In this document: in pieces, positions 9,348-19,608 of the stretch
Position numbering within the stretch: the stretch's first letter is position 1
Layout of the letters: the number at the start of each line of letters is the position of its first letter
Virus record (IMG/VR): IMGVR_UViG_3300019132_000064
Location: 1 to 24,778 of that record
Source of the DNA: a virus
Direction: 5' to 3' (one strand)
DNA: 24,778 bases
Translations under genes and position numbers: made by a program
Notes under the pieces: generated by a model
Told to the model about the DNA's origin: nothing
Seen by the model: the letters and a program-made list of their open reading frames with translations, nothing else
The model's database searches: none

Positions 9348-9376
9348 TTGCATGTCCGATACCGTTTTGGTATTAA
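9348..9376 (+). promoter_or_regulatory. Rightward early promoter (PR-like) for cro
   Basis: TTGCAT (9348-9353) and TATTAA (9371-9376) are separated by 17 bases. The operator at 9359-9373 fills the spacer and overlaps the -10 box. Transcription would start near 9382-9384, at or next to the cro ATG, so the cro mRNA may be leaderless. Confidence 0.6.
9359..9373. promoter_or_regulatory. Repressor operator OR-c (in the cro promoter)
   Basis: ATACC-GTTTT-GGTAT has perfect arms. It sits over the rightward promoter, so repressor bound here should silence cro and the right operon. Confidence 0.75.
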
Positions 9377-9383
9377 TGAGGGC

Positions 9384-9617
9384 ATGAAGCTTGCTGATTA
9401 TCTCTCGAAACACGGCCTTACCCATGCGGATTTCGCGTCCAAGATTGGGGCGTCACAGGCCGATATAAGCCGCTACATCAGTGGGGCGCGCACCCCGCGA
9501 CCGGCTCGAATGGCGCTGATTACCTTGGCTACCAAAGGCAAGGTTACAGCAAACGACTTCATTCCGCCCCCTACTCAAAAGAGGGTGGTCAGCGGCACCC
9601 AAGATGAGGCCGCGTGA
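9384..9617 (+). CDS. cro: Cro-like HTH regulator
   Basis: A 77-aa protein consisting almost entirely of a helix-turn-helix: MKLADYLSKHGLTHADFASKIGASQADISRYISGARTPRP, followed by a helical tail ALITLATKGKVTANDFIPP. The pattern matches YdaS/Cro-type phage regulators. It is divergent from cI across the three-operator region and is the first gene of the rightward transcript, which identifies it as the Cro counterpart. The start at 9384 is chosen because the HTH begins there; an upstream in-frame start at 9345 would run through the promoter. GAGGG lies only one base before the ATG, too close for normal use. Confidence 0.85.
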   Translation: MKLADYLSKHGLTHADFASKIGASQADISRYISGARTPRPARMALITLATKGKVTANDFIPPPTQKRVVSGTQDEAA

Positions 9618-9904: not shown

Positions 9905-10404
9905 ACACGCGCTATCTCGCCCGCATCGATTACGACCGCCTGAAGAAGGCGCAAGACGAGCTGATTAAGCATCCGGAGGTTGGAGGCCCGAAGGCGGCGG
10001 CCGAGGTCACACGTGTCGATCCGGCCCGTCTCTCCCGCTACGGCAGCCCGCATGAGACGACCAACGCACCAGTTGATGTGATCGCCGATCTGGAGGCGAA
10101 GGCGAATGCGCCTATCGTCACCCGTATTCTGGCGGATCTGCATGACTGCGATCTCGTCCCGCGTGACCGCTCTCTCAAGCAGCAGTCCGACTATGATGAG
10201 CATGCCACTGACCTGACCCGCGCGGCCTGTGCACTGATGGTGAAGCTGCAAGAGGCCCGCAAAGACGGCATTGATGCCGTGGAGCTCGTTCAGCTGGAAT
10301 CCCTCGCTACGCAGCTGCAGATCGAGATTGCCGAGTTCCGCCGCGATGCCAAGCGCGATCTGAGCGCCCCGGTGCCGATGCGCCGGACTGGCGGTGCAGC
10401 ATGA
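9901..10404 (+). CDS. CII-like phage regulatory protein
   Basis: A 167-aa protein beginning MNTRYLARIDYDRLKKAQDE. Residues ~20-60 hold a diverged HTH (GGPKAAAEVTRVDPARLSRYGSPHET), then PVDVIADLEAKANAPIVTRILADLHD, which I associate with the phage regulatory protein CII (CP76) type. The C-terminal half is a long helix (LVQLESLATQLQIEIAEFRRDAKRD) likely to oligomerise. It is the first conserved gene after the tR1-like terminator, where lambda carries cII. A role in the lysis-lysogeny decision is inferred from position and pattern. Confidence 0.65.
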   Translation: MNTRYLARIDYDRLKKAQDELIKHPEVGGPKAAAEVTRVDPARLSRYGSPHETTNAPVDVIADLEAKANAPIVTRILADLHDCDLVPRDRSLKQQSDYDEHATDLTRAACALMVKLQEARKDGIDAVELVQLESLATQLQIEIAEFRRDAKRDLSAPVPMRRTGGAA

Positions 10405-10700
10405 GCCGCCGCATTCCTGACGAGAAGATTGCCGTCGCCCGCGCACTTCGCGCCAAAGGCCATAGCATCAGCGAGGTTCAGGCTCTCGCCCGCATCAGCC
10501 GGGGCAGGGCCCATGAGTTCACCAAGGGCATCCAACTTCCATTCGGGCCTCTGAAGCGCGGGCCCAAGAAGCAGATCGCGTTCAACGTCTGCAAGGCGCT
10601 GAAGGATCAGGGGCTGACCTATCGGGCCATCGCAGCCCGCCTCGGCTGCGGCGTCGGCTCCGTTCACCGCACCCTCAAGACCGGAAAGGCTGCCGCATGA
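10401..10700 (+). CDS. Small HTH protein (two helix-turn-helix-like segments)
   Basis: A 99-aa basic protein. Segments at ~12-37 (ALRAKGHSISEVQALARISRGRAHEF) and ~67-93 (ALKDQGLTYRAIAARLGCGVGSVHRTLKTGK) both look like resolvase/homeodomain-type HTH motifs, joined by a basic linker (PLKRGPKKQ). Start and stop overlap both neighbours by ATGA. It probably binds DNA as a regulator or replication accessory. Family unknown to me. Confidence 0.72.
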   Translation: MSRRIPDEKIAVARALRAKGHSISEVQALARISRGRAHEFTKGIQLPFGPLKRGPKKQIAFNVCKALKDQGLTYRAIAARLGCGVGSVHRTLKTGKAAA

Positions 10701-13079: not shown

Positions 13080-13287
13080 TGACGCGACACCCGAGCAGCG
13101 CGCCCGTGCCGTCCGTTTCAGGGAAGAAGTCGTGAGACCCGAGATGAACACACGCGAAGCCGTCAAGCCGACAGAAACGCCGCTCGAAGCGCTGGAGCGC
13201 CTGAGGGAAGAGGCCAAGACGCCAGTCACGATTGGCGCTGGTCTCGCGAAGATACTCGCCGGCATGAGGAAGGGGCGAGCAGCATGA
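13063..13287 (+). CDS. 74-aa hypothetical protein
   Basis: Begins MQPLSDDATPEQRARAVRFR and contains EVVRPEMNTREAVKPTETPLEALERLREE, likely helical, ending in a basic tail (KILAGMRKGRAA). It overlaps the previous gene by 17 bases and the next by four. No recognised domain. Confidence 0.6.
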   Translation: MQPLSDDATPEQRARAVRFREEVVRPEMNTREAVKPTETPLEALERLREEAKTPVTIGAGLAKILAGMRKGRAA

Positions 13288-13598
13288 ACAACAAGCTGAC
13301 CGCCCGTGCTGTATCGAAAATCCGGCGCGACTGGATTGCCGGAGTAAGTCTTTCGGATCTTGCGGCTGAGCACGATGTCACAGACGCCGCTATCCATTAC
13401 CACGTCAGGGGCTTGGCCCGCGAAGCCATGCCCCCAAAAGGCCGTCCCCCGTCATTCGACCACAAGAAGGCACTGAAGCTCTTCGACTATGGACTCTCGA
13501 TGGCCGAGATTGCGAGGCGCTTCGGCGTCAGCCGCGTGCATATCCGGCGTATCCTTCTGGATGCTGGCATATCGACCAAGAGGAGGGCCGCAGCATGA
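13284..13598 (+). CDS. Small protein with two HTH motifs
   Basis: A 104-aa basic protein. The first HTH is at ~8-45 (RAVSKIRRDWIAGVSLSDLAAEHDVTDAAIHYHVRGLA) and the second at ~62-98 (KALKLFDYGLSMAEIARRFGVSRVHIRRILLDAGI), both of resolvase/Hin type. The same layout as the 99-aa gene at 10401 suggests the two are distant paralogues. Likely DNA-binding; target unknown. Confidence 0.75.
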   Translation: MNNKLTARAVSKIRRDWIAGVSLSDLAAEHDVTDAAIHYHVRGLAREAMPPKGRPPSFDHKKALKLFDYGLSMAEIARRFGVSRVHIRRILLDAGISTKRRAAA

Positions 13599-14013: not shown

Positions 14014-14535
14014 ATGGCGGATCCGCCTTGGCGCTTCGACACGTGGAGCCTTGCGGGCAAGAAGCACAAGAGCCCCGAGTCCCACTACTCAACGATGACG
14101 CTGGAGGAAATCAAGGCTCTGCCAGTTGGGCACCTCGCGGCGCCGGACTGCCTTCTTTGGCTCTGGGCTACCCATCCCATGCTGCCGCAGCAGCTCGAGG
14201 TGGTTGCCGCTTGGGGCTTTCGCTTCGTTACCTCGGGCGTCTGGGTCAAGAGGACCGTGAATGGTGGGTTGGCCTTCGGTACTGGCTACCGCCTGCGCTG
14301 CGCCTCTGAGCCTTTCCTTCTCGCGACCAACGGAAACCCGGACACGGCAAGGAACATCCGCACTGTGATTGAGGGGCCGCTTCGCGAGCACTCCCGCAAG
14401 CCTGACGAGGTGTTCGCCGCGGCAGAGCAGATGATGCCTGGCGCCCGCCGCCTTGAGCTCTTCAGCCGTCAAACCCGTCCTGGCTGGGACAATTGGGGCA
14501 ACGAGTCCACGAAATTCGATGAGGCAGCAGCATGA
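14014..14535 (+). CDS. MT-A70 family adenine methyltransferase, N-terminus interrupted
   Basis: An MT-A70-type N6-adenine methyltransferase with catalytic DPPW (residues 3-6 of this frame), HYSTMTLEEIKALPV, LLWLWATHPMLPQQLEVVAAWGFRFVTSGVWVKR, TGYRLRCASEPFLLATNG and HSRKPDEVF, all family landmarks. The natural start is the ATG at 13963, coupled to the upstream gene (ATGA, with GGAAGG upstream), but its third codon is TAG (13969-13971). After the stop, the same frame continues WPFGNLRPFAYDLIMADPPW, the expected family N-terminus. The first in-frame ATG after the stop (14014) drops the beta strand before DPPW, so activity is doubtful unless the amber codon is suppressed. It would methylate phage DNA, perhaps against restriction. 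Confidence 0.85.
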   Translation: MADPPWRFDTWSLAGKKHKSPESHYSTMTLEEIKALPVGHLAAPDCLLWLWATHPMLPQQLEVVAAWGFRFVTSGVWVKRTVNGGLAFGTGYRLRCASEPFLLATNGNPDTARNIRTVIEGPLREHSRKPDEVFAAAEQMMPGARRLELFSRQTRPGWDNWGNESTKFDEAAA

Positions 14536-15209
14536 CCAATCTCCCCCGCCTTCAACTGTCTGCCGAAGTCCAAGAGTGGCTGCGGCTTGCCCCGGAACTC
14601 GTCTCGCACTTCAAGGAAGTCCCGCAGGTCAACGATGATCCTCCGGAGACCTTCGAGGGCTTCACCTGGTTCGTCGTCGTCTGCAATCCCAAGTGCGAGA
14701 GGAGGGCGCAGCTCGGCCTCCGTCGTGCGGGATATGAGACGTATCTGCCCCAGACAAAGCGCTGGGTCGTTCACGCACGCAAGAAGGAGGAGCGGGAGAA
14801 TCCGCTCTTCCCGCGTTACCTGTTCCTCGGTCTCGCCCCTGGGCAGGACTTCTACCGTATGCGTGGCGTCGATGGCGTCGAGGGCCTCGTCAGGGACGGC
14901 TACGGCATGCCCGTGCAGATCCCGGCAGGAAGGCCCCGTGATGGCGTTGTGCCGCCTCATCCGCTGGCGAGGCTGCTTGAGCGGGAGCTGGCCGGCGAGT
15001 TCGACTTCACCCGCCTGCCGGAACTCGGCCCGCAATACAGCCCCGGAGAGGTTGTCCGCCTGACTGTCGGCGCCTTCACCGACCTTCAGGCGCAAGTCGT
15101 CTCCATGCTCTCAAAGGGTAGGGTTGAAGTGTTGCTCGACTTCATGGGGCGTGGCACGAAGGTGCAGATGAAAGCAACTGAGCTTCAGCGCCTCGAAGCC
15201 GCAGAGTGA
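14532..15209 (+). CDS. Phage NusG/RfaH-like transcription antiterminator
   Basis: A 225-aa NusG-family protein. After a ~42-residue N-terminal extension comes the NGN domain (FTWFVVVCNPKCERRAQLGLR, AGYETYLPQTKRWV, NPLFPRYLFLGL, VRDGYGMPVQIP, about 43-135), a spacer with Leu/Arg-rich helices, and a KOW domain (YSPGEVVRLTVGAFTDLQAQVV to GRGTKVQMKATELQRLE, about 167-222). NusG paralogues bind RNA polymerase at the clamp and make it processive. It is the last gene of the right early operon and is followed within 25 bp by a promoter, hairpin and terminator. That suggests it antiterminates the late operon, as Q does in lambda by an unrelated protein. Confidence 0.9.
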   Translation: MTNLPRLQLSAEVQEWLRLAPELVSHFKEVPQVNDDPPETFEGFTWFVVVCNPKCERRAQLGLRRAGYETYLPQTKRWVVHARKKEERENPLFPRYLFLGLAPGQDFYRMRGVDGVEGLVRDGYGMPVQIPAGRPRDGVVPPHPLARLLERELAGEFDFTRLPELGPQYSPGEVVRLTVGAFTDLQAQVVSMLSKGRVEVLLDFMGRGTKVQMKATELQRLEAAE

Positions 15210-15230
15210 GTGGATAACCTTGCTCGACTC

Positions 15231-15259
15231 TTGCCACGGTTGAACCATTGCGCTAGAAA
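15231..15259 (+). promoter_or_regulatory. Candidate late promoter (pR'-like)
   Basis: TTGCCA (15231-15236) and TAGAAA (15254-15259) are spaced 17 bases, with transcription expected near 15266. It lies directly after the NusG-like gene and drives a leader of about 85 nt ending in the terminator at 15318-15348. Confidence 0.55.
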
Positions 15260-15271
15260 TAAGTTCTCAAA

Positions 15272-15300
15272 GCACTCTCGGTGATTTTCACCCGGAGTGC
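15272..15300 (+). promoter_or_regulatory. Leader hairpin between late promoter and terminator
   Basis: GCACTC pairs with GAGTGC (6 bp) and GGTG with CACC (4 bp), separated by a 2x2 internal loop and closed by ATTTT. Just after it, TGCGTTAGCTT (15298-15308) matches the RfaH ops consensus GGCGGTAGCNT at 9 of 11 positions. That could be a pause or loading site for the NusG paralogue, or chance. Confidence 0.4.
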
Positions 15301-15317
15301 GTTAGCTTTAGACGGAT

Positions 15318-15348
15318 GCCCCGGCGAGATGATCGCGCGGGGCTTTTT
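15318..15348 (+). terminator. Rho-independent terminator of the late leader
   Basis: GCCCCG / CGGGGC plus an inner GCG / CGC around a 7-base loop, followed by TTTTT. On the plus strand it closes the transcript of the NusG-like gene and of the short leader. The minus strand lacks a T-run, so it does not serve the opposing HTH gene. Confidence 0.82.
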
Positions 15349-15352
15349 AGTG

Positions 15353-15610
15353 TCACCCATCGGTGATGAGCCTCGCAAGTTCCAGCGCCTTCTTGCGAAG
15401 TGGTGCAGGGACCAGCATTGGGTTTTCCAAGAAGAGCGCCATGTCGAGCGCTACCATGTAGGCTTGAGCCAGATGGATCTTCTTCACCTCGGCTTTGCCT
15501 TGTTCAAGGTTGTGGTAGCCGGCTTTGCTCATGCCCATCTCTCGGGCCATAGCTTCAACAGAGAGGCCCAGATGATTGCGAATGGCCTTCAGATCATCTG
15601 TATCAGTCAC
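15353..15610 (-). CDS. XRE-type HTH regulator
   Basis: An 85-aa protein with a GTG start (15610) preceded by AAGGAG at seven bases. HTH at ~8-42 (LKAIRNHLGLSVEAMAREMGMSKAGYHNLEQGKAEVKK), then a helical region (HLAQAYMVALDMALFLENPMLVPAPLRKKALELARLI). It resembles small antitoxin-like or Cro-like regulators. It is transcribed against the phage late direction, after a 22-aa leader peptide gene, from the promoter at 15796-15823, and could bind the large dyad there. Confidence 0.8.
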   Translation of the reverse strand: MTDTDDLKAIRNHLGLSVEAMAREMGMSKAGYHNLEQGKAEVKKIHLAQAYMVALDMALFLENPMLVPAPLRKKALELARLITDG

Positions 15611-15795: not shown

Positions 15796-15823
15796 AACAT
15801 ACCATTTTCTAGTACGGTGTCAA
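15796..15823 (-). promoter_or_regulatory. Promoter of the XRE/micropeptide module
   Basis: On the minus strand, TTGACA (15823-15818) and TATGTT (15801-15796) are spaced 16 bases, almost the same architecture as the leftward early promoter. The -35 box lies at the centre of the large inverted repeat. Confidence 0.65.
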
Positions 15824-15845
15824 CAGCATCGTGCTAGTTTTTGGT
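15801..15845. promoter_or_regulatory. 45-bp inverted repeat, probable operator
   Basis: Left half ACCATTTTCTAGTACGGTG (15801-15819) and right half (15827-15845, reverse complement ACCAAAAACTAGCACGATG) agree at 13 of 19 positions: ACCA, CTAG, AC, G and TG, around a 7-base centre. It covers the minus-strand promoter. The sequence differs from the cI operators, so a different regulator, probably the XRE protein encoded next to it, should bind. On the plus side a TATAAA (15845-15850) follows, hinting at divergent control. Confidence 0.6.
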
Positions 15846-15898: not shown

Positions 15899-16015
15899 AT
15901 GACCACAAAACCCCGCAAATCCTACACCCGAGACGATGGCTGTCTCATGGTAGAGATCCGCCCATCCGTCTACGTGGAAGAGAGCATGGCCGAGAGGCTG
16001 GGGCTGTTGAGGTAG
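15899..16015 (+). CDS. 38-aa micro-protein
   Basis: MTTKPRKSYTRDDGCLMVEI to the end MAERLGLLR. Soluble and charged. The stop is one base before the next ATG. Its last codons lie in a 19-bp segment repeated at the end of the next gene. No family recognised; no good ribosome site is evident. Confidence 0.4.
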   Translation: MTTKPRKSYTRDDGCLMVEIRPSVYVEESMAERLGLLR

Positions 16016-16800: not shown

Positions 16801-17136
16801 ATGCCCAAGCCCCTCGATTACAAAGCAAGGCAGAGAGAGCACGACGCCAAGCGCAGGGCAGAGCAGCCGTGGAGAGCTTGGTACAAGACGCTCGGCTGGT
16901 TCCGCATCCGCTCCAAGCGCTTGAGAGACGAGCCCCTATGCCGGATGTGCAGGGCAGAGGGCAGGGTGACGCCCGGACGGATCGTCGACCACATCAGGCG
17001 CCACCAAGGGCAGCGAGAGTTGTTCTTCGATTACGAGAACACCCAGACGCTCTGCAAGCCCCACCACGACAGGGACAAGCAACGCGAGGAGCGAGGCAGG
17101 TTCCAGGCGGTAGATGCTGATGGATGGCCGATATGA
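16801..17136 (+). CDS. HNH endonuclease near terminase
   Basis: A 111-aa HNH protein. A basic N-terminus (KARQREHDAKRRAEQPWRAWYKTLGWFRIR) precedes the zinc-binding PLCRMC, the catalytic IVDHIRRHQG, Asn in YENTQTLC and a final HHD. HNH proteins of HK97-like phages lie next to cos and stimulate terminase cleavage, and this one is in that place: cos candidate and TerS begin about 400 bp downstream. The ATG directly follows a TGA, so the gene may be read from the late transcript. Confidence 0.88.
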   Translation: MPKPLDYKARQREHDAKRRAEQPWRAWYKTLGWFRIRSKRLRDEPLCRMCRAEGRVTPGRIVDHIRRHQGQRELFFDYENTQTLCKPHHDRDKQREERGRFQAVDADGWPI

Positions 17137-17605: not shown

Positions 17606-18094
17606 ATGGGTAAGCGAGGGCCAAAGCCGAAGCTGGCGAGCATCAAGCAGTTGGAGGGCAACCCGGGCAAGCGGGCCATCGATCTGATCGGGCTTGAGGC
17701 CACCGGCGAGGCCCTGGTCCCCGACCATCTGCACGACGACGCGCAGGCCTGCATTGAGCTGGTCAAGCGGTCGATGCCGCCGAAGACCTACGCCACCGTC
17801 GACACGTTCGCCCTCTCTGCTTTCGCCACGGCCTGGGCGTGGCACAAGAGAGCGACCCACGAGATGAACGCCCCAGAGTTCGAGCCCATCGTGGAAGGCA
17901 GTAAGGGCCAGAAGCAACCGAACCCATGGTTCAAAATCCTGAAGGCCATGTCGGAGGAGATGAGGACATGGGGCGACCGCCTCGGACTCGATCCAAAGGC
18001 AAGGGCCGCGCTCAAACTCCCCGACGAAAAGCCTCGCAGCAAGTTCGACGGCCTGATCGGGCAGCCCGGGTCATCGCGTTCATTGAATGCCTGA
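17606..18094 (+). CDS. terS: Terminase small subunit, P27 family
   Basis: A 162-aa protein with the P27-family start MGKRGPKPKLASIKQLEGNPGKR, a helical core (DDAQACIELVKRSMPPKTYATVDTFALSAFATAWAWHKRAT, WFKILKAMSEEMRTWGDRLGLDPKARAALKLP) and a flexible end. It recognises the packaging site and loads the large subunit. The spacing after the candidate cos region fits. It overlaps the large subunit by about 127 bp. Confidence 0.93.
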   Translation: MGKRGPKPKLASIKQLEGNPGKRAIDLIGLEATGEALVPDHLHDDAQACIELVKRSMPPKTYATVDTFALSAFATAWAWHKRATHEMNAPEFEPIVEGSKGQKQPNPWFKILKAMSEEMRTWGDRLGLDPKARAALKLPDEKPRSKFDGLIGQPGSSRSLNA

Positions 18095-19608
18095 TCGTCC
18101 CGAGCGGCGAAGGGCAGGGCGGGCCATTCAAGCTCCGCGAGTGGCAGAAGCGCTTCATCCGCGACATCTACGAGCCGCACAATCGAGTGACCGAGCGCCG
18201 GCTCGTGCGTCGGGCCATCCTCTCGATTGCGCGTAAGAACGGCAAGACGGCATTGATCGCGGCTCTCGTGCTCGCCCACTTGGTCGGACCTGAGGCAATC
18301 CAGAACGGGGAGATCTATTCCGCGGCGAACGACCGCGAGCAGGCTGCCCAGGTCTTCAAGATGGCTCGGCAAATCGTCGACGCTGATCCGGAGCTCAAGG
18401 CGCTTGTGCGGGTGATCCCGTCGACCAAGACTCTGGCCTGCTACTCCAACGGCTCATTCTATCGGGCGATCTCAGCGGAGGCAGGCACGAAACACGGCTT
18501 CAACCCATCACTGGTGATCTTCGATGAGCTGGCTCAAGCGAAAGACCGCGAACTTTATGACGTTCTTGATACTTCGATGGGTGCTCGTGCGGAGCCGCTC
18601 TTCGTAACCATCTCGACGCAGAGCAACGACCCCGAGCACATTCTGTCGAAGCTCATCGACGACGGCCTGGGAGCCAAAGACCCGACCATCGTCTGCCATC
18701 TCTATGCTGTTCCGGAGGAGCAGGAGGATATCTTCGAACCGAAGTGCTGGAAGCTGGCCAATCCGGCTCTTGGCGACTTTCGATCATTCGAGGATCTGAA
18801 AGCCATTGCCGACAAGGCTAGGCGGATGCCGGCAGAGGAGCCGAAGTTCCGGAACCTCTATCTCAACCAGCGCGTGGCGCCGACTGCTTCACTGATCTCG
18901 CGGGCCGAATGGATGGCCTGCGTTGGGGATGCCGAGTTTGAGGACGGAGAAGAGGTCTATCTGACGCTCGATATGTCCACGGTGGTCGACCTGACATCGC
19001 TCACCATGGGCAGCGCGGCCGATCCGACGAAGATCAAGCCGTTTTTCTGGAAGCCGGAAGACCTTTTGAGAGAGCACAGCAATCGTGACTTCGGCACGGG
19101 CAACCATCGCTATCTTGAGTGGGCACAACAGGGTTATCTCGAGGTCTCGCCTGGTCGCTCTATCGACCCCAAGGTTGTCGCTCTCCGAATTGCTGAACTC
19201 TGCGGCCAATATAAGGTGCTTGGCCTTGCGTATGACCGATGGCGCATCGACGACCTCTTGCGAGAATTTGACCGTATTGGCCTCCAAGCTTTCAAAGACG
19301 GCGAAAAAGGCGACGGCCTGAGGCTCATCCCATGGGGGCAGGGCTTCAGGGACATGGCGCCGGCCATTGATGCGCTCGAGCTGGCGGTGATCGAGCGCAA
19401 GCTCATCCACCCGAGCAATCCGGTGCTGAACTGGAACATGGCGAATGCGGTCGCGACTATGGATCCCGCCGGCAATCGCAAGATCGACAAGAACAAGGCC
19501 CGGTTCCGGATCGACGGCGCTGTGACGCTGGCGATGCTCTGCGGGCTCAAGTCTCGCGATCGCAAGGATGAGCGAAAGCCTGACTACCAGATGTTCGTGC
19601 TGGGCTGA
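17968..19608 (+). CDS. terL: Terminase large subunit
   Basis: A 546-aa packaging motor of the HK97 type. The N-terminal ATPase has Walker A ARKNGKTALI (about 88-97), Walker B SLVIFDELAQ (about 181-190), an Arg-rich start and LREWQKRFIRDIYEPH before it. The C-terminal nuclease begins near VYLTLDMSTVVDLTSL, with acidic residues typical of the RNase H-like fold. The ATG at 17968 is chosen for GGAGGAG eight bases upstream; 17926 is in frame but lacks this. This places about 127 bp over terS in another frame, longer than usual, and the first ~30 residues are basic and low in complexity, so a later non-ATG start is possible. Confidence 0.93.
   Translation: MGRPPRTRSKGKGRAQTPRRKASQQVRRPDRAARVIAFIECLIVPSGEGQGGPFKLREWQKRFIRDIYEPHNRVTERRLVRRAILSIARKNGKTALIAALVLAHLVGPEAIQNGEIYSAANDREQAAQVFKMARQIVDADPELKALVRVIPSTKTLACYSNGSFYRAISAEAGTKHGFNPSLVIFDELAQAKDRELYDVLDTSMGARAEPLFVTISTQSNDPEHILSKLIDDGLGAKDPTIVCHLYAVPEEQEDIFEPKCWKLANPALGDFRSFEDLKAIADKARRMPAEEPKFRNLYLNQRVAPTASLISRAEWMACVGDAEFEDGEEVYLTLDMSTVVDLTSLTMGSAADPTKIKPFFWKPEDLLREHSNRDFGTGNHRYLEWAQQGYLEVSPGRSIDPKVVALRIAELCGQYKVLGLAYDRWRIDDLLREFDRIGLQAFKDGEKGDGLRLIPWGQGFRDMAPAIDALELAVIERKLIHPSNPVLNWNMANAVATMDPAGNRKIDKNKARFRIDGAVTLAMLCGLKSRDRKDERKPDYQMFVLG

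Follow-up and report, generated by a model that had tools for sequence, protein, structure and literature searches.

To our knowledge, no transcription factor family other than NusG is universally conserved; the known specialized NusG paralogs drive long host or plasmid operons. The locus analyzed here lies in a viral contig of 24,778 bases (hereafter, the window) from a temperate phage of soil bacteria and raises the question of whether such a paralog can serve as the late switch of a phage, in the manner of Q in lambda. Judging from sequence and predicted structure, we consider it probable that the NusG-like protein encoded in the window is a processive late antiterminator acting at the leader that follows its gene, that is, a Q-like switch. 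This reading is based on the protein family, the anatomy of the leader, its conservation, its co-occurrence with the gene, base-pair covariation and synteny. The relevant features of the window are as follows.

13284-13598, plus strand: HTH protein, candidate activator, conserved immediately 5' of the NusG gene (partial phrog_836 match)
14532-15209, plus strand: NusG-family (NGN+KOW) protein, proposed late antiterminator (Pfam, PHROG and RfaH matches)
15210-15218, plus strand: GTGGATAAC box ~21 nt upstream of the -35, possible activator or UP site (recurs in relatives)
15231-15259, plus strand: putative late promoter, -35 TTGCCA at 15231-15236, 17 nt, -10 TAGAAA at 15254-15259 (conservation)
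15272-15300, plus strand: RNA hairpin, a few nt past the inferred start site (folding, covariation)
15299-15306, plus strand: ops-like 8-mer GC-GTTA-GC, sharing its first two bases with the 3' end of the hairpin
15318-15348, plus strand: predicted intrinsic terminator of the leader, analog of lambda tR' (folding, T5)
15353-15610, minus strand: XRE-type HTH cargo gene between the leader terminator and the late genes (PF01381/PF13560)
15809-15842, plus strand: second terminator-like hairpin, in the path of any late transcript (-15.6 kcal/mol stem, then TTTTT)
15899-16015, plus strand: short ORF MTTKPRKSYTRDDG..., probable first late ORF (translation; similar starts in relatives)
16801-17136, plus strand: HNH endonuclease, start of the packaging module (phrog_2323, E 5e-28)
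17606-19608, plus strand: small and large terminase subunits, first structural late genes (PF05119, PF20441, PF03354)

The 225-aa product of the ORF at 14532-15209, the final gene of the early/middle operon, matches the Pfam NusG family (PF02357, E 9e-14, residues 45-131) and the PHROG family phrog_6386, 'transcription antiterminator' (E 7e-18). In the NCBIfam ranking RfaH comes on top (E 1.5e-17), with a score under the curated equivalog cut-off (TIGR01955, 64 bits vs 144.5), and the LoaP cut-off is missed as well (18 bits vs 125, E 0.002). The structure was predicted with AlphaFold from an alignment of 29 sequences, given that 18 similar sequences yielded a mean pLDDT of only 56. The resulting model (mean pLDDT 80) comprises an NGN domain, mostly above pLDDT 84 and aligned to the RfaH NGN domain with Z 12.4, and a KOW barrel with five strands in residues 174-220 (pLDDT ~80), to which the KOW regions of NusG and RfaH also align. 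The top eight solved matches to this model are all RfaH chains, the best being RfaH on the ops-paused polymerase (Z 12.4), so that RfaH, which shares the NGN+KOW fold, is the best match by both sequence and structure. The phage KOW is predicted as a beta-barrel, and nothing in the model points to the autoinhibited helical form of RfaH; the prediction comes from a shallow alignment, and a second fold would still be compatible with it. The ORF, the PF02357 match and the predicted fold thus confirm the NGN+KOW protein reported in the preliminary description, and its product is a specialized NusG paralog that is neither an RfaH equivalog nor, by family score, LoaP, nor Q. No Q-family match was found among the window proteins scanned against PHROGs, a set that includes part of the small ORFs. 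The earlier statement that no Q-like protein is visible holds at the PHROG level, with the qualification that the HTH protein encoded at 13284-13598 partially matches phrog_836, 'late transcriptional activator' (E 6e-7); this protein recurs upstream of NusG in many relatives, in up to three copies.

The -35 hexamer begins 21 nt past the NusG stop codon, and TTGCCA-17-TAGAAA was found as previously described. A promoter scan of the window based on the E. coli consensus missed this one, and support for it comes from its conservation across loci. The hairpin at 15272-15300 (-16.9 kcal/mol, z -4.9) and the terminator at 15318-15348 (-20.1 kcal/mol with T5, z -3.9), both already noted from inspection of the letters, were located, and the proposed leader length of ~85 nt, counted from the inferred start, is correct. 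Between them lies the ops-like 8-mer GCGTTAGC. The 9/11 ops match claimed at 15298-15308 proved to be only 8/11 when compared to GGCGGTAGCGT, and sites matching GGCGGTAGCGT at 8/11 or better number 107 in the window, with 85 expected by chance; as evidence from one genome, the match is therefore at chance level and was rejected, and support for the ops claim is supplied by the comparative data. The overall arrangement is that of lambda Q at pR'-tR', with a putative late promoter, a short terminated leader, the proposed antiterminator gene immediately upstream and the late operon downstream. In contrast to lambda, the protein is unrelated to Q, its signal would probably lie in the transcribed leader rather than between -35 and -10, the promoter spacer appears poorly conserved and a hairpin stands at the start of the RNA.

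Close NusG relatives were compared in 26 loci, namely 21 that were fetched, 4 subsequently found via a wider alignment, and the window. The leader is present 3' of the NusG gene, on the same strand, in 26/26 of these loci (in divergent versions in L013, L014, L015, L016 and L020), at distances from ~20 to ~2,500 nt and with otherwise unrelated flanks. This variation bears on the simplest alternative, namely that the terminator merely marks the end of the NusG operon and protects the XRE cargo gene, the promoter and hairpin being incidental: in the window, the terminator indeed lies 109 nt past the NusG gene and adjoins a convergent gene, but most relatives have other DNA, from several hundred up to 2,500 nt of it, between NusG and a leader whose parts stay together, and we regard this explanation as very improbable.

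Comparison of the leader in related prophages had been suggested as a check, and the leader passed it: the promoter, hairpin and ops-like site are kept, and the flanks and the terminator sequence are not. When the loci are anchored on the -35 hexamer, identity is 0.25 (chance) in the flank and increases from the GGATAAC box onward; the promoter hexamers have values of 0.76-0.85 and the ops-like core one of 0.82, and past the terminator identity is back to 0.25; the promoter spacer, at 0.43, falls below the hexamers and above the flank. The TTG and TA..AT of the promoter are near-invariant across 24 leaders, and a GGATAAC-like box (GGGGATAAC/GTGGATAAC) occurs at -21 to -24, with two mismatches at most, in most of the 19 non-redundant leaders. 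In part of the leaders, GACTC (GANTC, a CcrM-type site) overlaps the -35.

The leader and the protein also occur together in wider searches. The exact leader pattern TTCACCCN{2,3}AGTGCGTTAGC, scanned over 2.9 million viral contigs, matched 13 contigs, and all 13 encode a close NusG relative. Among 48 Microvirga genomes, the leader lies downstream in 7/7 NusG loci of the window type; in one of these, G045, both the NusG gene and the stem of the leader after it are broken. In addition to the 26 loci, two Microvirga prophages carry variant leaders beside NusG, and in a third both the NusG gene and the leader are decayed. In the decayed prophage L144, the NusG gene (10011-10620, minus strand) is split, and the leader (near 9905-9991, minus strand) has a damaged 3' hairpin arm. 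A search of Rfam with the leader found no family, only chance matches. A leader-model search of 298 sampled genomes returned only two Microvirga genomes that were already known, a yield that rules out the leader as a general small RNA.

The conserved box and the HTH protein invite another explanation, under which the leader is either a small RNA gene or just a promoter, constitutive or attenuated, the late genes are started by an activator (for example, the HTH protein 13284-13598), and NusG acts elsewhere, for instance as a general anti-Rho factor. The GGATAAC box upstream of the -35, the GACTC over the -35 in part of the set, the partial late-activator match of an HTH protein that is conserved upstream of NusG, and the orphan leaders described below, which end in a terminator and resemble small RNA genes, all speak for this explanation, but it does not account for the conservation of the hairpin and ops-like site past the start, for the retention of a terminator of variable sequence, or for the tight pairing with NusG type, and appears unlikely to us. 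Moreover, an activator and an antiterminator can coexist, as do GafY and GafZ of the Caulobacter gene transfer agent CcGTA, an alphaproteobacterial case in which a structural-gene cluster is controlled by antitermination together with an activator bound at the promoter; GafZ reportedly resembles no known antiterminator and binds between -10 and -35 (PMC11150451), and differs from the phage protein in not being a NusG homolog. The GGGGATAAC/GTGGATAAC box, GACTC and the HTH protein could point to additional control of the late promoter, by an activator or through sensitivity to methylation.

In every close locus, folding places the last two bases of the hairpin precisely on the first two of the ops-like 8-mer. 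Its outer stem takes the forms GCACT/AGTGC, GCAAG/CTTGC, GCAGG/CCTGC, GGACA/TGTCC, GGACG/CGTCC and others, with 95.8% of the cells paired and 12 double changes, a level of pairing reached in 0/500 shuffles; the sole unpaired row, L020, is an alignment shift. Like the ops element in an RfaH target leader, the 8-mer can close a 2-bp mini-hairpin in 28/28 leaders, as GC-N4-GC or a compensated form; the predicted likeness is one of the element. The usual form is GC-GTTA-GC, with the variants CC-GTTA-GG, CC-GTAA-GG, GT-GTTA-AC, GC-GACA-GC, GC-GATA-GC and GC-GGTA-GC; the compensated changes are GC->CG and CG->UA, and the double changes occur in three sequences and reflect perhaps two events. Given that the first two bases of the mini-hairpin are also part of the RNA stem, covariation alone does not separate RNA from DNA pairing. 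In E. coli, the non-template strand of ops forms a hairpin with the stem C3:G8 and the loop G4-A7, and restoring the stem pair partly restores RfaH recruitment (PMC5995543). The phage element would share with ops the non-template mini-hairpin, the C3:G8-type pair and the 4-nt loop G...A (PMC5995543). It differs in that the loop is usually GTTA, compared to GGTA in E. coli, the factor is encoded beside its target, a promoter-proximal RNA hairpin is fused to the ops-like site, and an intrinsic terminator follows close behind.

The same hairpin could instead be recognized as RNA. The LoaP protein of Bacillus is a NusG paralog whose 5' leader contains both a hairpin and an intrinsic terminator; LoaP depends on the RNA hairpin of this leader and allows read-through of intrinsic terminators (PMC12691694). 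A LoaP-like phage protein would bind the nascent RNA hairpin and then suppress the terminator, which differs from the switch proposed here only in the recognition step; each close locus has a hairpin between its promoter and its terminator, one that covaries as RNA, and this fits such a course. However, apical loops and stem sequences vary, so that, unlike in LoaP systems, the hairpin sequence is not conserved across loci, and the best conserved positions are the 8 nt at or just past the stem base, the ops-like element of the phage leader; the mini-hairpin pairs in all leaders with compensated changes, and two RNA base pairs would hardly be stable; and the family score favors RfaH (E 1.5e-17) over LoaP (0.002). 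We consider recognition of the LoaP type a possibility to be reckoned with, if the less probable one. Since LoaP demonstrates that NusG paralogs can use RNA hairpins (PMC12691694), DNA recognition by the phage NusG is held with somewhat lower confidence than the antiterminator switch itself.

The protein and the leader also appear to diverge together. Across loci, NusG identity correlates with the identity of the hairpin plus ops-like site (r 0.63, permutation p 0.0003) and not with that of the promoter (r 0.02) or the terminator (0.05); this co-divergence rests on few splits, given that r falls to 0.28 (p 0.10) without the most divergent groups. A third NusG type (L148, L150), the gene of which ends inside the leader, has the same promoter and a different hairpin. 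Bradyrhizobium-type phages, including the sequenced phage ppBjS10J-1, encode a NusG ~30% identical to that of the window and have a conserved element of their own, CGGCCGGT-N-TTTCACCCGCCGGGYGGCTTGTG, just downstream of the gene. The exact pattern CGGCCGGT-N-TTTCACCCGCCGGGYGGCTTGTG occurs in 17 contigs, in 13 of which NusG lies upstream (13/14 of those with enough upstream sequence); of the remaining contigs, three have <300 nt upstream, and one (L076, element at 1461-1483) has 1,460 nt upstream in which no NusG-like protein is encoded. The L076 element also lacks its conserved upstream part. Neither a settled structure nor a promoter was obtained for the Bradyrhizobium-type element.

In the sampled host-family genomes, eight further NusG paralogs have a TerL match at a distance of ~2.5 kb or less, and another two precede a match to the presumed large-terminase gene of ppBjS10J-1, which is annotated as hypothetical. 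A stem, GC-N4-GC and a terminator follow three of these ten paralogs, in the distant prophages L178, L179 and L205; L181, L183, L185, L187, L188 and L190 have at most a terminator after NusG and no convincing hairpin-ops unit, and the leader-scan matches in L180, L188 and L190 may be due to chance. In the Labrenzia phage L049, a hairpin and a terminator follow the NusG gene, at a single locus without relatives for comparison. As a tentative but quite possible extension, a class of temperate Rhizobiales phages might have swapped Q for NusG paralogs, with a composite loading signal in which the last bases of an RNA hairpin double as an arm of an ops-type non-template DNA hairpin, and with several co-diversified, mutually specific pairs of protein and signal (the Microvirga, L148 and Bradyrhizobium types) that would be exchangeable between promoters and terminators.

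At the end of the leader, a terminator-like stem with a T tract, represented by several unrelated sequences, was found in 23/26 loci, beginning ~15-37 nt past the start of the ops-like core; no obvious terminator was detected in L008, L013 and L014. As far as the predicted stems indicate, the leader terminator is retained as a function and not as a sequence, and unrelated terminators recombine freely with the rest of the leader. The gene order is NusG, leader, cargo, HNH, TerS, TerL and portal, with some of the fetched loci stopping short of the terminase. NusG and the leader persist despite a TerL identity of only 26-37% in L004, L010 and L020 and a TerS identity of 26% in L013. Among the loci compared, a relative of the XRE cargo gene occupies the same place, on the minus strand, only in L009. 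Varied cargo occupies the junction of leader and late genes, as well as the interval between NusG and leader, in relatives. An ORF start similar to that at 15899-16015, an ORF that may be truncated in the window, follows soon after the leader terminator in L012, L016, L020 and L066. Additional terminator-like structures precede TerL in the window and in several relatives, so late transcription would need processive rather than single-site read-through.

The proposed switch would operate as follows. Early in infection, the polymerase would start at 15231-15259 and stop at 15348, producing an ~85-nt leader RNA. Once the operon that ends in the NusG gene is expressed, the NusG protein would be loaded promoter-proximally: the hairpin/ops-like site (15272-15309) would make the polymerase slow or pause, the GC-GTTA-GC mini-hairpin would form in the non-template strand exposed there, and both this mini-hairpin and the polymerase would be bound by the NGN domain, which would recognize DNA rather than RNA. 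The modified polymerase would then pass the leader terminator and later ones, a read-through dependent on the protein, into the HNH, terminase and structural genes. Intrinsic terminators are reported to be overcome only inefficiently by E. coli RfaH (PMC7819879), so the phage mechanism must differ from it in strength.

Phage NusG-like genes have been annotated before, and what appears to be new here is the cis element with the proposed switch; no description of a phage NusG with a cognate leader, or of such a switch, was found in the open-licence literature. Phage phiLM21 and Rhizobium phages (AII27786.1, MN988468, MN988516) have NusG-like genes that are annotated by name only, with no cis element described. 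The phiLM21 homolog, named 'NusG-like transcription anti-terminator' in the record, lies directly before the HNH and terminase genes, and those of the Rhizobium phages are ~41% identical to it. In phiLM21, the position of NusG is kept, but a leader of the window's sequence type is not clearly visible. This case, the other prophages in which NusG adjoins the terminase but a clear leader is likewise missing, the three loci without an obvious leader terminator and the orphan leaders of Microvirga count against the switch. If true, the use of NusG as a late switch by a phage would connect RfaH-ops with Q-pR', both textbook systems, would provide a natural set of co-varying proteins and DNA signals for target choice by NusG paralogs, and would explain possible late-gene control in rhizobial temperate phages without a recognizable Q.

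Intact leaders with neither NusG nor terminase nearby are found in three Microvirga contigs, L137 (7448-7533, plus strand), L138 (18343-18429, minus strand) and L139 (2953-3038, minus strand). Those of L138 and L139 have a similar context and lie ~1.6 kb or less from the contig end, and the L139 leader contains GCGGTAGC, the 8-mer of E. coli ops. In the Microvirga lenta prophage L142, a second leader (9348-9433, minus strand) lies ~7 kb downstream of the first, before the HNH and TerS genes, so that one NusG may serve two loading sites.
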